A stretch of 64,000 nt of DNA from Megamonas hypermegale. Its GTDB lineage: Bacteria; Bacillota; Negativicutes; Selenomonadales; Selenomonadaceae. The stretch's first letter is position 1; each line of letters starts with the position of its first letter. Under the pieces are notes generated by a model. That model made no database searches. It was not told the DNA's origin and saw only the letters and a program-made list of their open reading frames with translations. Positions 51,014 through 58,929 of this stretch are shown one piece after another. Both the position numbers and the translations under genes were made by a program. The DNA is taken from NCBI RefSeq assembly GCF_900187035.1, contig NZ_LT906446.1, positions 310,001-374,000 on the forward strand, written 5' to 3'.

Positions 51014-51814
51014 ATGATAGATTTTTTGGGAAATTTATTTTGGAATTTTTTGCTTGCAAACTGGGTAAATATGGCGTTAATAATAGTTGGAACTTCGGCA
51101 ATATTCGTCTATATTTGGCAAGAGCGGGGAAAAACTAAAGATTATGCTTCTATGATTGTTTTGCAAATAGATGAGTTACAAGAAAGAATGCAACAAATTC
51201 AATCATATATAACTGATGATGGATTAAATTTTAAAGCTTTTTATGAGTCTTTACCATTAATGAATGAAAATTATTGGGATAGATATAAGCATGTTTTTAT
51301 TAGGAAAATAGATAATAAAAGTTATCATAATATTAATAAATTCTATCAATATGTGTTATCTATTAAAGAACAACAAGAGTTATTGAGAAATTTGCAAAAA
51401 AATTATTTTTTTCTTAAGCAACAAGCTATAACTAATACTGAATTTTCTTATATAGATAGAATTATTAGTGCGACAGAACAAAGCATAATTTCACCTGATT
51501 TGGTAGAAAAATCTAAAAATGATTTTCTAAAAGAAAATAAAAATGAAAATTTAAATCAATTTGTTGGAAAAGTTTTAGAGCAAATATCTTTAAATAATTT
51601 AAATAATAATTTAGATGTTTTTTGGAGTGCGTACAATCAGAAGAGAAATAAGTTTTTAGGAATTATGAATAATAATCAAGCTTTAACAGATTATTCTCCA
51701 CTACAAATATCTCAAACAATAAAAAGTATATTAAAACAGTATTCTATGCTAGAAATTACAGGAACAGAAGGCTATAGAAAATTACGTAAAATTGCTAAAA
51801 TGACAGATAAATAA
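51014..51814 (+). CDS. Membrane-anchored coiled-coil protein at the RM locus, unknown
   Basis: 266 aa. One N-terminal membrane helix (NWVNMALIIVGTSAIFVYIW), then a cytoplasmic helical region rich in Gln, Asn and Lys with coiled-coil stretches (QIDELQERMQQIQSYI; LLRNLQKNYFFLKQQA). No enzymatic motif. It directly precedes the R-M fusion gene by 19 bases, so it is probably cotranscribed. I do not recognise the family; a defence accessory role is inference from location. Confidence 0.75.
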   Translation: MIDFLGNLFWNFLLANWVNMALIIVGTSAIFVYIWQERGKTKDYASMIVLQIDELQERMQQIQSYITDDGLNFKAFYESLPLMNENYWDRYKHVFIRKIDNKSYHNINKFYQYVLSIKEQQELLRNLQKNYFFLKQQAITNTEFSYIDRIISATEQSIISPDLVEKSKNDFLKENKNENLNQFVGKVLEQISLNNLNNNLDVFWSAYNQKRNKFLGIMNNNQALTDYSPLQISQTIKSILKQYSMLEITGTEGYRKLRKIAKMTDK

Positions 51815-51833: not shown

Positions 51834-53807
51834 ATGAATATAGAAGACATTCTTAATGGTAGTAAATATAATTTAACACAATTTAGTCAAGAAAGTATTA
51901 CATCTTTATTAGAACGAGTTATTGAAAAAAATAATAAGGGAAAACCTGCTTTATATGTGGAATGTTTAATACGAAAAAAGCTTATCATGTTAAAGCCAGA
52001 AGAAATAGTTCGTCAATTATATATAGATAAATTAAATAAACAATATGGATATCCACTTAATCGTATGGCTGTTGAATATGTTGTTTCTTTTGGTAGAGAA
52101 AAGAAAAAAGCTGATATTGTTATCTTTGATAAAGATAGAAAGACTGCGCCATATATTATAGTAGAATTAAAAAAACCTAAATTAAAAGATGGAAAAGAAC
52201 AATTAAAATCATATTGTAATGCAACAGGTGCGCCTATTGGTGTATGGACTAATGGAGAACAGATTTCATTTTATAACAGAAAAGATCCTAATTATTTTGA
52301 AGATATACCAAATATTCCATCTGTGGATGAAAGTTTAGCAGATATTTTAACAGAACGATGGACTATTGATACATTAATACAGAAAGATAAATTAGTGCAA
52401 GAACGTAAATCTTTAAAGGATTTAATTCTTGAAATGGAAGATGAAGTTTTAGCAAATGCTGGTGTTGATGTTTTTGAAGAAGTTTTTAAGCTAATATTTA
52501 CTAAATTATTTGATGAATTACAAAGCGGTAGAGATAAAAAGCGAGTATTACAGTTTAGAAACTATGGTTATACAGAAACAGAATTAAAAGAAAAAATTCA
52601 AAATTTATTTGAACAAGCCAAAAATAAATGGGAAGGTATATTTGGAGAGTCTACAAAAATAGAATTAACAGGTTCACATTTATCCGTTTGTGTATCTAGT
52701 TTGCAAGACGTAAAATTATTTAATTCTAATCTTGATGTAATAGATGATGCTTTTGAATACTTGATGAGTAAGAGTCAAAAAGGTGAAAAGGGACAATATT
52801 TTACACCACGTTATGTTATTGAAATGTGTGTTAGAATGTTAAATCCTACCGAAGATGAAAATATGATTGATACAGCTGCTGGTAGCTGTGGATTTCCTAT
52901 TCATACAATATTTTATGTTTGGAAACAGATTTTGCGAGAAAAAGGCATAAAGCAGAGTAATTTATTTACATCAGAAGAAAAACCTGTTGAATGTACAGAT
53001 TATGTAAATGAACATATTTTTGCAATAGATTTTGATATAAAATGCGTTCGAGTAGCTAAAATGTTAAATCTTATAGCAGGAGATGGAAAAACGAATGTTC
53101 TTCACTTAAATACTTTAGATTATGAACGTTGGGACGAAGTTACAAAAGAAGAACAATGGACAGATACCTATAATGAAGGTTGGAAAAAATTAAAAAAATT
53201 AAGGTCTATAAAGAATAGCAATCAATTTTTTAACTTTGATATTTTAATGGCTAATCCACCTTTTGCTGGTGATATTAAAGAAAGCAAGATGATATCTTGT
53301 TATGAACTTGGTAAAAATGCTAAAGGAAAAATGCAAAGTAAAGTAGGCAGAGATATTTTATTTATTGAAAGAAATCTAAATTTCTTAAAGCCTGGCGGAA
53401 GAATGGCTGTAGTATTGCCACAAGGACGTTTTAATAATAGCGGTGATAAATATATTAGAGATTATATTGCAAAACATTGTCGTATTCTTGCTGTTGTAGG
53501 TTTGCATGGAAATGTATTTAAACCGCATACAGGTACTAAAACATCGGTTCTTTTTGTGCAAAAATGGGATAATGAACTTTGTCCATATAAAGAAGATTAT
53601 CCAATTTTCTTCGCTACCATGCAAGAACCTAGTAAAGATAATTCTGGTGAAAAAATATATGTAACCAAAGACGGAAAACCTGTATTAGATACACATGGGC
53701 ATCTTATTGTAAAACACGATTTATATAATCATGATGGATTAACACAAGATGGTATAGCAGAAGCTTTTATTGAATTTGCGAAAAAGGAAAAACTAAGTTT
53801 TTTCTAA
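51834..53807 (+). CDS. Restriction-modification fusion: PD-(D/E)XK N-terminus plus N6-adenine methyltransferase
   Basis: 657 aa. Residues about 60-145 form an HsdR-N-like nuclease: Glu81 (AVEYVVSF), Asp94 (KKADIVIF) and Glu111-x-Lys113 (IVELKKPK). Residues about 300-560 are an HsdM-like methyltransferase with QYFTPRYVIEMCVRML, motif I DTAAGSCGF (346-354) and motif IV NPPF (474-477). The layout resembles the A subunit of BcgI-like type IIB enzymes, which cut and methylate with one chain plus a separate S subunit. No HsdR translocase is present. GAGGT before the ATG. Its stop follows a U UUU UUC heptamer directly; see the junction entry. Confidence 0.9.
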   Translation: MNIEDILNGSKYNLTQFSQESITSLLERVIEKNNKGKPALYVECLIRKKLIMLKPEEIVRQLYIDKLNKQYGYPLNRMAVEYVVSFGREKKKADIVIFDKDRKTAPYIIVELKKPKLKDGKEQLKSYCNATGAPIGVWTNGEQISFYNRKDPNYFEDIPNIPSVDESLADILTERWTIDTLIQKDKLVQERKSLKDLILEMEDEVLANAGVDVFEEVFKLIFTKLFDELQSGRDKKRVLQFRNYGYTETELKEKIQNLFEQAKNKWEGIFGESTKIELTGSHLSVCVSSLQDVKLFNSNLDVIDDAFEYLMSKSQKGEKGQYFTPRYVIEMCVRMLNPTEDENMIDTAAGSCGFPIHTIFYVWKQILREKGIKQSNLFTSEEKPVECTDYVNEHIFAIDFDIKCVRVAKMLNLIAGDGKTNVLHLNTLDYERWDEVTKEEQWTDTYNEGWKKLKKLRSIKNSNQFFNFDILMANPPFAGDIKESKMISCYELGKNAKGKMQSKVGRDILFIERNLNFLKPGGRMAVVLPQGRFNNSGDKYIRDYIAKHCRILAVVGLHGNVFKPHTGTKTSVLFVQKWDNELCPYKEDYPIFFATMQEPSKDNSGEKIYVTKDGKPVLDTHGHLIVKHDLYNHDGLTQDGIAEAFIEFAKKEKLSFF

Positions 53808-53845
53808 ATAACCCACCATTTGACGAAGAAAAATATAATCGTTTA
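53774..53845 (+). other. Candidate -1 frameshift junction between R-M and S genes
   Basis: The heptamer T TTT TTC (53798-53804) is in the zero frame of the R-M gene and is followed at once by TAA. A -1 slip would read CTA AAT AAC CCA CCA, giving LSFF-LNNPPFDEEKYNRLMSGLE and an uninterrupted fusion to the S protein. The S frame is open back to 53774. The S gene ATG (53846) lacks a clear Shine-Dalgarno (only AAGAAAAA, 15 or more bases away). Confidence 0.5.
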
Positions 53846-55243
53846 ATGAGTGGGTTAGAATGCAGTGAAATATATTTTAATAATATACATGATAATTTAT
53901 TTAGATTAGAAGCTGAATATTATAAAAAAATATATTTAAGCATAGAGAAAAAACTAGCTAATTATAATGAGTTAGGTATGTATGTTAACTCAATAAATTG
54001 TGGACCATTTGGTTCAAGTTTATTAGATGATAAGTATGAAATAAATGGTGTATTAGTTGTTAGACCTTTTAATTTAAAACAGCTTACAATAGAAAACGAA
54101 AATTTAGTATATATTTCAGAAGAAACATTGCATGATAACAACTTAAAAAAATATGGTAGAAATACAGTACTTTTTTCTAGAGTGGGAGATATAAAAATAG
54201 GGGTATCTAATAGAGATAATATAACTATCAGCCCTAATATTATTGCAGTTTCTTTGAAAAATGAATTCTTGGCAAAATATGTAGCGGTATTTTTTTATAC
54301 TAAATATGGTTTTTTACAAATAAAAAGGCAGTTAAAAATATCTGCTCAACCGACTATATCAACAAATGTTATAGAAAAATTGAAAATACCATTTTTTGAT
54401 AAGTTGGTGGATAGGATAATTTCTAAATTAGATATTACTGAAAATTTAATGCAACAAGCAAATAAAGCTTATTTAAAAGCTGAACAATTATTAGTAAAAG
54501 AATTAAATATAAAAATAGAAAATAATAGTAATATTAATATAAAATCATTTAATAATTCTTTTAGTAATAGTGGACGTTTAGATGCTGAATATTATTTAGC
54601 TAAATATGAAGCTTTACAAAAAAATATATATAAATATCCTAAAAAAGGAAATATATGTTCTATAATAACATTACAGGATAAAAATATAACACCTAAAGAT
54701 AATAAAAAATATAAATATATAGAATTAGCTAATATTGACAATATAGGAAATATAATTGATTGTACAGAAGATTTTGGAGTGAATTTACCAACAAGAGCAA
54801 GAAGAATTGTTCATACAGGAGATGTGATTGTTTCATCAATTGAAGGTTCTTTAAATAAGTGTGCATTGATAACAGAAGAATTTGATGGAGCTTTTTGTTC
54901 TACTGGTTTTTTTGTAATAAAATCGGGAATATTTACATCAGAGACACTTTTAGTTTTATTTAAATCAGAAATATTGCAGAATTTAATGAAAAAAGGTTGT
55001 TCGGGTACTATTTTAACAGCAATAAGTAAAGAAGAATTTGAGAAAATTTGTATACCTATTTTAAATGATAATATACAACAAAAAATTACTTGTTATATAA
55101 AGCAATCAAAATTATTATATAATCAAAGTAAATTATTGTTAGAAGCTGCTAAAAAATCTGTAGAAATTGCTATTGAACAAAATGAAGATATTGCTCTAAA
55201 TTATCTTCAAGAACAATCAGATAATATTTTGAATAATAATTAA
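53846..55243 (+). CDS. Specificity subunit (HsdS-like) with two target-recognition domains
   Basis: 465 aa from ATG 53846. The first TRD (about 45-185; NSINCGPFGSSLLDDKYEINGVLVVRPFNL) and second TRD (about 260-410; ITPKDNKKYKYIELANID) are each followed by a helical spacer (KLKIPFFDKLVDRIISKLD and KICIPILNDNIQQKITCYIKQSKLLYNQSKLLLEAAKK). This is the standard two-half S architecture recognising a bipartite DNA sequence. More AT-rich than flanking genes. It may be produced as a fusion with the R-M protein by frameshift. Confidence 0.88.
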   Translation: MSGLECSEIYFNNIHDNLFRLEAEYYKKIYLSIEKKLANYNELGMYVNSINCGPFGSSLLDDKYEINGVLVVRPFNLKQLTIENENLVYISEETLHDNNLKKYGRNTVLFSRVGDIKIGVSNRDNITISPNIIAVSLKNEFLAKYVAVFFYTKYGFLQIKRQLKISAQPTISTNVIEKLKIPFFDKLVDRIISKLDITENLMQQANKAYLKAEQLLVKELNIKIENNSNINIKSFNNSFSNSGRLDAEYYLAKYEALQKNIYKYPKKGNICSIITLQDKNITPKDNKKYKYIELANIDNIGNIIDCTEDFGVNLPTRARRIVHTGDVIVSSIEGSLNKCALITEEFDGAFCSTGFFVIKSGIFTSETLLVLFKSEILQNLMKKGCSGTILTAISKEEFEKICIPILNDNIQQKITCYIKQSKLLYNQSKLLLEAAKKSVEIAIEQNEDIALNYLQEQSDNILNNN

Positions 55244-56113: not shown

Positions 56114-58585
56114 TTAGCCTTTTACTACAATGTTTACAAGTTTTTGTGGTACGCTGATTACTTTAACGATAGTTTTACCTTCGATTAAGCCTTTGATTTT
56201 TTCATCAGCAAGTGCTTGTTCTTGTTGTTGTTCACGAGTTGCAGTAGAAGCAATCATGATTTTAGAACGTACTTTACCATTAACTTGAACAACTACTTCA
56301 ACTTCATCAGCAACAGTTGCTTTTGGGTCAAATGTAGGCCAAGTTGTATGATGTACACTGCCTTTTTGACCGATTTGTTGCCAGAGTTCTTCAGTAACGT
56401 GTGGAGCAAATGGTGCTAAGAGTTTAATCAAGTTGATAACAACTTCGCGAGCAAGACCAGCATTTAAGTTGCCATCTTTGAAAGTATAGAACGCATTTAC
56501 AAGTTCCATGATTGTACTGATAGCAGTGTTGAATGTGCCACGAGTGCCGATATCTTCTGTTACTTTTTGAATTGTAACGTTTAAGATACGGAATAATTCT
56601 TTTTCTTCTTTAGTTAAAGCATTTTTATCAAATGGCTGATTTTCTTTTACTTTATCAGCATAGGAGAGAACAATTCTCCAAACACGCTGAATGAAACGCC
56701 AAGCACCTTCTACACCTTGGTCACTCCATTCGAGGTCACGTTCTGGTGGAGCAGCGAATAAGATGAAGACACGAGCTGTATCAGCGCCATATTTTTTGAT
56801 GATTTCTTCTGGGGATACTACATTGCCTTTTGATTTACTCATTTTAGAACCATCTTTGATAACCATACCTTGAGTTAAGAGGTTTGTGAATGGTTCATCA
56901 AAGTTTACAAGACCAGCGTCTTTTAAGACTTTAGTGAAGAAACGGGAATAGAGCAAATGCAAAATAGCGTGTTCGATACCGCCGATATATTGGTCAACTG
57001 GGAGCCAGTAATCTACAGCTTCTTTAGAGAATGGCATTTTGTCATTGTGTGGGTCAGCATAGCGCATATAATACCAAGAAGAACAAATGAATGTATCCAT
57101 AGTATCTGTTTCACGTCTTGCAGGGCCACCGCATTTTGGACAAGTGCAGTTGACAAATTCTTCGGATTGAGCAAGTGGAGAAGTAGCACCAGTTTCAAAT
57201 TTAACGTCTTTTGGTAATTTAACAGGTAAATCTTCTTCAGGTACGAGAACTTCACCGCAATGAGGGCAGTAAATTACTGGAATTGGTGCACCCCAATAAC
57301 GTTGACGGGAAATGAGCCAATCGCGTAAACGGTAATTTACATGACGTTCACCGAGTTTGTTTTCTTCGAGCCAATCAATCATAGCTGTGATAGCTTTGCG
57401 ATTGTTCATGCCGGTGAATTGACCAGAATTTACGAGTACACCATCATCAACGTAAGCATTTTCCATTGTTTCAAGTGTGAGGGAATTATCTTTATTCTGG
57501 ATAACAATTTTCATTGGTAAATTGTATTTTTTAGCGAACATGAAGTCACGTTCATCATGAGTTGGAACACCCATAACAGCACCAGTACCATATTCATAGA
57601 GAACATAGTTTGTTACCCATACAGGTACTTTTTCGCCGTTGAATGGATTTATAGCATAAACGCCAGTGAACATACCTTTCTTTTCAGATTCGCTGGAAGT
57701 ACGTTCGATTTCGTTCATGTTGTGAACTTCTTCAATGAATTTTAAAATTTCTTGTTCGTTTTCTTTGCCTTTGATGAATTTTTTTACAAGTGGATGTTCA
57801 GCTGCTAAAACTACATAAGATACACCGAAAACGGTATCAGGGCGAGTTGTATAAACTGAAATCTTTTCATTGTATTCTGGTACATCAAAGCTGAATTGTG
57901 CGCCTTCACTTCTGCCAATCCAGTTATCCTGCATGATTTTTACGCGGTTTGGCCAACCTTTGAGTTTGTCGAGGTCTTTTAAGAGTACATCAGCGTAATC
58001 TGTGATTTTTAAGAACCACTGTTCAAGGTCTTTTTTTACAACAGTGGAATCGCAACGCCAGCATTTGCCATCGATAACCTGTTCATTTGCAAGTACAGTA
58101 TGGCAAGTTTCGCACCAGTTAGCGGAAGCTTTTTTCTTATAAGCGAGACCTTTTTTATAGAATAATTCAAAAAGCCATTGTGTCCATTTATAATAATCTT
58201 CATGGCAAGTAGCAACTTTTCTATCCCAGTCATAGGAAAGACCCATTTCTTTTTGCTGGCGAGTCATGTTTGCCATGTTGTCTTCTGTCCAATCGGAAGG
58301 ACGAACGCCGTGTTTGATAGCAGCATTTTCTGCTGGCATACCGAAAGCATCAAATCCCATTGGGTGAAGTACATTAAAGCCGTTCATGGTTTTGTAACGA
58401 GCGATAACATCACCGATGGAATAGTTGCGAACGTGTCCCATATGTAGATTTCCAGAAGGATAAGGGAACATTTCAAGTACATAATATTTTGGTTTACTTG
58501 GGTCGTTTTTAATCTGATAAGCATTAGTTTCGTCCCAGATTTTTTGCCATTTTTTTTCAATGGTCTGTGGACAATATTTTTCCAT
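56114..58585 (-). CDS. leuS: Leucyl-tRNA synthetase
   Basis: 823 aa, standard bacterial length. Class I: HIGH-type motif in [16 protein letters not shown] and KMSKS in [18 protein letters not shown]. The CP1 editing domain ([30 protein letters not shown]) is intact. Zinc-like Cys clusters [21 protein letters not shown] and [16 protein letters not shown] present. Transcription is controlled by a T-box with Leu specifier upstream. Confidence 0.98.
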
Positions 58586-58616: not shown

Positions 58617-58825
58617 TAAAAAAGCCCCTGGCAATATATGCCAGGGACGAATTAATCGCGGTACCACCCTGATTGACAGATAGCTGTCCTCTTAAAATCT
58701 TAACGGGATTAGCGGCAACAAGTGCTCCTCCACAGCGAGTTCAACCATAAAGCTATAGGCTCACATCAACCGCCTATTTTCTGAAAAGACTTTACAAAGT
58801 TTACTACTCTGTATCAAGGGATTTA
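58617..58825 (-). promoter_or_regulatory. T-box riboswitch of leuS (specifier CUC, Leu)
   Basis: On the minus strand: stem I with AGTAG at the 5' side, a specifier region TTGAACTCGC whose CTC (58739-58737) reads Leu, the T-box core AGGGTGGTACCGCG (58670-58657), then the terminator CCTGGCA TATA TGCCAGG followed by GGCTTTTTT (to 58617). Uncharged tRNA-Leu would stabilise the antiterminator and allow leuS expression. Confidence 0.95.
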
Positions 58826-58929
58826 TTATAACTATACAATTATAGACAAATATCATTATACTTAGCAACTACATTAAAGTCAAGAATAAGTATAGCAATA
58901 AAAATCAGCATTTAATTTAAAGCTAAAAT

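Follow-up and report, generated by a model that had tools for sequence, protein, structure and literature searches.

How is the specificity (S) subunit of a restriction-modification (R-M) enzyme made when its reading frame lies one base back from that of the gene before it and has no evident ribosome-binding site of its own? The question is raised by a locus in Megamonas hypermegale (contig NZ_LT906446.1), within a stretch of 64,000 nucleotides (nt; positions 310,001 to 374,000, hereafter the window), where a gene for a combined endonuclease and methyltransferase (RM) runs into an overlapping S frame. Comparison across 106 loci makes it very probable that a programmed -1 ribosomal frameshift cassette lies at the RM-S junction, through which one gene would provide both RM and a longer RM-S chain. 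Ribosomes translating RM would reach the slippery heptamer U_UUU_UUC, closely flanked by a Shine-Dalgarno (SD)-like sequence on its 5' side and a hairpin on its 3' side, which would induce some of them to re-pair one base back. Ribosomes that stay in frame would stop at UAA and release RM (657 amino acids, aa), and those that slip would read on through S to give RM-S (about 1136 aa); S would then be produced mainly or only as the tail of RM-S. Both the slip itself and its frequency are inferred from sequence.

The 3' end of RM reads ...AAA AAG GAA AAA CTA AGT TTT TTC TAA. A sequence-only reading of this DNA had remarked that the heptamer stands in the zero frame and is followed directly by UAA, that the S frame is open across it such that a -1 slip would give a single long chain, and that the start of S lacks a clear ribosome site. 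Each of these statements was borne out (Table 1), and the slip that it proposed is now strongly supported by the comparative evidence from relatives, stem and starts. The first ATG of the S frame (53846-53848) lies 38 nt past the RM stop and has no SD by our SD test, and the stretch read in the -1 frame after the slip holds no ATG, GTG or TTG upstream of 53846.

RM itself matches PF13588 and PF02384 in Pfam and PDLC03034 in PADLOC (1114 bits), and its best PDB match is the Type IIB enzyme RM.BsaXI. Residues D94, E111 and K113 and the NPPF motif are retained in 105-106 of the 106 relatives, and both the endonuclease and the methyltransferase activities are therefore probably intact. Of the parts of a Type I HsdR with its helicase/translocase, Pfam found only HSDR_N_2 and no helicase domain in the RM chain, in a scan that covered a minority of the neighbouring genes. 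The S frame has no Pfam model at E<=0.001; it has a MAD5-like match in NCBIfam (E 3e-23) and a Specificity_I match in PADLOC (E 5e-23, spanning 70-473), and its second half matches PDB entries 3okg_A and 5ybb_D (E about 3e-17). Two Methylase_S stretches are found in relatives in which RM and S are natively fused (L094 and L117). The locus thus has the Type IIB-like traits of endonuclease and methyltransferase in one chain and an S with two target-recognition domains (TRDs), the two halves in the window's own S being putative.

Table 1. Features of the RM-S junction in the window (positions counted from its first letter)
Feature	Position	Strand	Basis or remark
RM gene, 657 aa, zero frame	51834..53807	+	PD-(D/E)xK endonuclease (HSDR_N_2) and N6-adenine methyltransferase domains; ends at TAA
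S (specificity) open frame, -1 relative to RM	53774..55243 (stop at 55243)	+	matches along each half suggest two target-recognition halves
Proposed upstream stimulator: SD-like AAGGA ending 9 nt short of the heptamer	53784..53788	+	read from sequence
T6 tract	53798-53803	+	read from sequence
Slippery heptamer U_UUU_UUC (T_TTT_TTC in DNA), zero frame of RM	53798..53804	+	equivalent heptamer at 103/106 loci
Zero-frame stop UAA, immediately 3' of the heptamer	53805..53807	+	
First stretch translated in the -1 frame following a slip, LNNPPFDEEKYNRLMSGLE	53805..53861	+	homologous to the in-frame linker of native fusions
Stem-loop, begins 4 nt past the heptamer; 3' arm covers the first S-frame ATG	53809..53857	+	-19.2 kcal/mol, z -6.2, 0/200 shuffles as good
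Predicted junction-spanning peptide of RM-S, LSFFLNNPPFDEEK			

The comparison set of 106 non-redundant loci was drawn from 129 loci plus the window, with 8 duplicates removed. Its sources were a scan of genome contigs (80 of 289 relatives kept), genomes of the window's family (30 loci), the window's own genome (5), a phylum sample (1 more), a class search (3), plasmids (2), phages (1), viral contigs (4) and E. coli (3). Loci were included at 55% identity or more if the alignment reached residue 640; 12 are listed as dropped, and a match at 1e-20 was also required. The split relatives with the same break come from eight named phyla and from plasmid, phage and viral-contig records, the phylum labels being those of record titles, many of them for metagenome-assembled genomes. 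In the window's family 141 of 189 genomes match at E<=0.001, most far more weakly than the window's own family. The family of enzymes is patchy, since only 3 of 398 genomes in the phylum sample match at E<=1e-150, the window's own included; the single other genome from the window's genus lacks a close homologue. A DNA search of E. coli genomes with the window sequence gave no match, and the Klebsiella copy used as DNA query was matched in 3 of 5,426 E. coli genomes. In the Klebsiella (L116, 7386-8177) and E. coli (L126-L128, 4925-5716) copies a further gene follows S with a one-base overlap.

The signal is conserved across these relatives together with the second frame. A heptamer of the form X_XXY_YYZ lies in the zero frame at the frame change in the window and, counting both classes and a viral-contig locus whose heptamer ends in G and whose -1 frame is not S (L120), at 103 of 106 loci. 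In 87 of the 106 RM ends at a stop (split loci), and 84 of these have the zero-frame heptamer at that point: 60 are of U type (U UUU UUU, U UUU UUC and, in L120, one U UUU UUG) and 24 are G GGA AAR. The zero-frame stop follows the heptamer at codon 0 (35 loci), 1 (43), 7 (5) or 9 (1), and the -1 frame is open for at least 115 codons in all 84, in some to the end of the locus. Sharma et al. (PMC4066793), in the accessible text, count H_HH.U_UU.Y and V_VV.A_AA.R among the most efficient heptamer classes in E. coli, and every heptamer here except that of L120 belongs to one or the other. Such strings are rare elsewhere in the same genes: with the junction excluded, the M genes of the 106 relatives have U6Y in the zero frame at 14 and GGGAAAN at 16 of 70,075 codon positions. 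Codon choice at the junction is equally strict. All 79 U-type loci have TTT as their first Phe codon (51.2 expected from the usage of each gene), and the codon before it ends in T in all 79 (AGT 73, TCT 5, ACT 1), compared with 1,318 of the 3,553 Ser codons of these genes. Three further loci (L108-L110) fall outside the 106 since a long insert cut their alignment; L109 and L110 have U7 plus a stop and L108 has C CCU UUU plus TGA. In their RM proteins very roughly 165-185 residues are inserted ahead of the C-terminal end, and the heptamer lies 0-1 codon before the stop.

The heptamer is followed within a few nt by an RNA structure. In 101 of 103 loci the best uninterrupted stem begins 3-6 nt downstream of the heptamer, and stems of at least 12 base pairs starting within that range are found in 85 of the 103, compared with 6 of 2,120 random control places within these genes. 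The stem goes beyond what the encoded protein would require, and it covaries. Against synonymous recoding of the S frame it reaches P<=0.05 in 102 of 103 loci and P<=0.01 in 87 (window P 0.003). In the 77 of 103 junctions that align without gaps (76 distinct; the other 26 have different spacing), 96.1% of cells pair, compared with 37-63% in slid structures, and 68 cells have changed on both sides, compared with 23.7 in shuffles (0 of 500 reach 68) and 2-16 in slid structures. The optional upstream stimulator is present in the window and among the U-type split loci, where an SD-like sequence occurs in 41 of 60 (25.5 expected from synonymous shuffles, z 4.8).

The sequence-only reading had proposed a comparison with homologues in search of native fusions, and that comparison gave the second layout of the system. 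Native R-M-S fusions make up 19 of the 106 loci, and all 19 retain the heptamer at the same place. Their -1 frame stops at codon 0 (18 loci, TGA) or codon 1 (L080), and a slip would therefore give RM. The outcome would thus be reversed: ribosomes that stay in frame would make RM-S, and those that slip would make RM through the immediate -1 stop. Because both layouts would yield the same two products, selection appears to maintain the pair of RM and RM-S. A protein tree that omits the last 20 residues, made by a quick method and with some weak and long branches, shows 4 changes between split and fused and 10 changes of heptamer state (U, G or none). More distant fusions, at about 30% identity, are less clear. 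All five long ones (L111-L113, L134 and L135) have A_AAA_AAA within a Lys-Lys-Lys stretch of the linker and a -1 stop 3-12 codons on, with no stem (P 0.8-1.0) and no immediate -1 stop at the junction. This heptamer may reflect Lys codon preference or may be a weaker relative of the same device. A shorter fusion, L115, has heptamers elsewhere in its linker, with -1 stops after 6 and 1 codons, and lacks a significant stem. The linker of L134 also contains, 50 codons in, a UUUUUUU that looks like chance and is directly followed by a -1 stop.

The alternative that survives best, although we consider it improbable, is that S is restarted at a nearby ATG or TTG by termination and reinitiation, the heptamer being incidental. 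Such coupling is stated for hsdM-hsdS of EcoKI (PMC3510504); the window's ATG is close to the RM stop, 67 of 84 split loci have TTG as their first possible start, and S is annotated as a gene in its own right in the E. coli and Klebsiella records. A strong SD before S in homologues, which the sequence-only reading had named as counting against its own proposal, was looked for: among the 84 heptamer-bearing split loci an ATG precedes S codon 20 in 21, and an ATG, GTG or TTG backed by a four-base SD does so in only one. The heptamer-less L054 is a further case: AGAGGGG precedes an S GTG there, in an apparent switch to ordinary initiation. The window's first S ATG also sits inside the stem. Moreover, the -1 frame is under coding constraint upstream of any start. 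Of the 84 split loci, 80 encode in that frame the motif F[NDS]xx[KRHEY][YFLH], which all 19 fused loci share, and in 73 of these 80 it precedes any possible start; entropy in the loop at S-frame codon positions 1, 2 and 3 is 0.83, 0.84 and 1.49 (62 split loci). Coupling would need neither the conserved heptamer and phase nor the heptamer and -1 stop of the fusions. Junctions that do look coupled are of another kind: the five distant split relatives at about 30% identity (L114, L124, L125, L136 and L137) have no heptamer near the RM stop and all show ATGG-stop with a purine-rich SD-like stretch before the ATG, and of three other type I junctions in the window's own genome both that were examined have an ATG overlapping the M stop.

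Still less probable, in our judgement, is transcriptional slippage, in which RNA polymerase would gain or lose a U and produce mixed mRNAs. T-runs of 6-8 are present in 79 of 106 loci and transcriptional frameshifting is known in bacteria (PMC4256274), but the runs are short, slippage would be unlikely at G GGA AAG, and the mechanism needs no zero-frame register, no hairpin 3-6 nt on and no SD-like sequence. The probability that we give to phase variation at the DNA level is lower again. The sequence-only reading had held that the T6 tract could equally be a phase-variation switch, toggled between split and fused forms by slipped-strand mispairing. The T-runs of 6-8 would suit this, and the tract does change at times, since the tract is T5 in L056 and L064, where S lies in the +1 frame. 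The comparison nevertheless did not support the claim: 24 of 87 split loci have the non-homopolymer G GGA AAR in place of the run, all 84 heptamer-bearing split loci share one phase although the U-type runs have 6, 7 or 8 Ts, and the run lengths of the fused loci (7 in 18, 6 in 1) are also common in split loci, the difference lying in the bases after the run. Among the relatives, which do not include strains of the window's species, tract length therefore does not vary so as to alter the frame as in phase-variable R-M genes, L056 and L064 excepted. A weaker point is that three E. coli chromosomes are letter-for-letter the same as the Klebsiella copy through the junction, and these may be recent copies. 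Although frame breaks in long genes are often errors, a sequencing error or decayed gene is scarcely credible here, given the same break in 84 of 87 split relatives, the retained catalytic residues and the assembly of the window's genome as one 2.23 Mb contig.

Several observations weigh against the frameshift cassette itself. The loci are related, and counts drawn from them are neither independent nor to be read as probabilities at face value; with 15 of the 19 fusions in one clade, independent origins of fusions are also few. Three of 87 split loci lack the heptamer (L054, L056 and L064), two of them being those with T5 and S in +1. L120 ends its heptamer in G, has no stem (P 0.75) and does not have S in its -1 frame, and the S frames of L003, L055, L067, L069 and L071 end within the locus after 115-311 codons. 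The window falls outside the covariation set, its linker being one codon longer, and within that set neither the double-change pairs nor the further pair types beat shuffles (136 and 149 of 500). The SD-like signal is absent from G-type loci (1 of 24, 1.7 expected) and weak in fused ones (9 of 19, 5.6 expected, z 1.9). As for the heptamers, the accessible text of the E. coli studies calls G_GG.A_AA.A, that of L072, inefficient (PMC4066793) and U_UUU_UUU much less shift-prone than A_AAA_AAG (PMC5009743). On the other hand, G_GGA_AAG is called highly shift-prone in E. coli (PMC5009743), and since U_UUU_UUU is weak, an SD-like helper at the weaker heptamer only would make sense. Two of the exceptional cases merit description in their own right. 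L056 (5046-5165) and L064, both from Bacteroidales, retain the GCCCC...GGGGC arms of the stem, and the -1 frame of L120, an IMG/VR contig, encodes a protein of 295 residues whose match to the EVE domain is weak (E 0.01, below cut-off).

What would the cell gain from making RM and RM-S together? The likely use, and the weakest step in the argument, is assembly of a 2RM:1S complex from one gene. This is suggested by analogy with BcgI, AloI and CjeI, the EcoKI M-S fusion and TstI, which are compared below. The whole picture, to which we give rather more credence than doubt, is of a Type IIB-like clade in at least eight phyla in which one signal in two mirror layouts would give RM and RM-S in a set ratio, the RM/RM-S heterodimer would be the 2RM:1S enzyme, and at least four moves between split and fused states would have kept the dual output. 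If the output has indeed been kept through these moves, selection would see the ratio and not the gene arrangement. The picture would also suggest how a fused R-M-S enzyme of this clade obtains the second RM needed by a two-TRD design, and it would provide a broad and testable family of bacterial -1 frameshifting in defence genes, with a built-in contrast between slips that extend and slips that truncate. Where S is entered as a gene of its own, as for E. coli and Klebsiella, the annotation would miss how it is made. Within open-access full texts and the accessible parts of frameshift surveys (PMC3711429, PMC5009743, PMC4066793), with supplements and subscription papers outside that scope, we found no report of programmed frameshifting in R-M genes, although such genes may sit in an unnamed GeneTack cluster. 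In the accessible text of PMC6456624 frameshifting is mentioned only for rare codons in general.

Two neighbouring features complete the description of the window. A 266-aa open reading frame (ORF; 51014-51814) ends 19 nt upstream of RM; it matches nothing in Pfam or PADLOC, and the other fetched loci contain no homologue. An Rfam scan of the whole window found only a T-box leader (58640-58826, - strand), which lies upstream of an 823-aa ORF (56114-58585). That ORF presumably resembles leucyl-tRNA synthetase.

Among known frameshift cassettes, those of dnaX (tau/gamma) and of IS3 and IS911 share with this one the heptamer, the downstream structure and the upstream SD-like sequence, and dnaX also has two layouts: in E. 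coli the slip gives the shorter product, in some bacteria the longer one (PMC4066793). The present cassette differs in lying in an R-M gene, in its heptamer (U_UUU_UUY or G_GGA_AAR rather than A_AAA_AAG) and in its predicted products, RM and RM-S. Stimulatory structures generally start 5-8 nt downstream, with SD-like elements upstream (PMC4066793), whereas the stem here starts 3-6 nt past the heptamer. Matches to MAD2 and MAD5 of MADS in NCBIfam and PADLOC run along RM and S, but membership of that system was rejected, as the scores (316.4 of 720 and 82.4 of 400 bits) are far under the NCBIfam equivalog cut-offs.

Among R-M systems, hsdM-hsdS of EcoKI likewise has a frame break between M and S, with a 1-nt overlap. 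In contrast to the junction described here, EcoKI couples the genes at the overlapping start codon, R is a separate gene, and the accessible text describes no slippery cassette; an engineered M-S fusion (Type IMS) worked in vivo but in vitro only with HsdM added (PMC3510504). The Type IIB enzymes BcgI and BsaXI are closer in composition, with endonuclease and methyltransferase in one chain and an S partner, and both are 2RM:1S (PMC3874165, PMC11997821). The present family differs in that its S is a predicted tail of RM, reached by frameshifting. Finally, the single-chain Type IIB enzymes AloI, CjeI and TstI (RMS) have the same domain order as the native fusions. TstI is a homotetramer of its single chain (PMC4027205), and free RM is therefore not needed everywhere. 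The 1RM:2TRD ratio of AloI and CjeI has been called a mystery in review (PMC3874165); the native fusions described here keep a signal that should also yield free RM.

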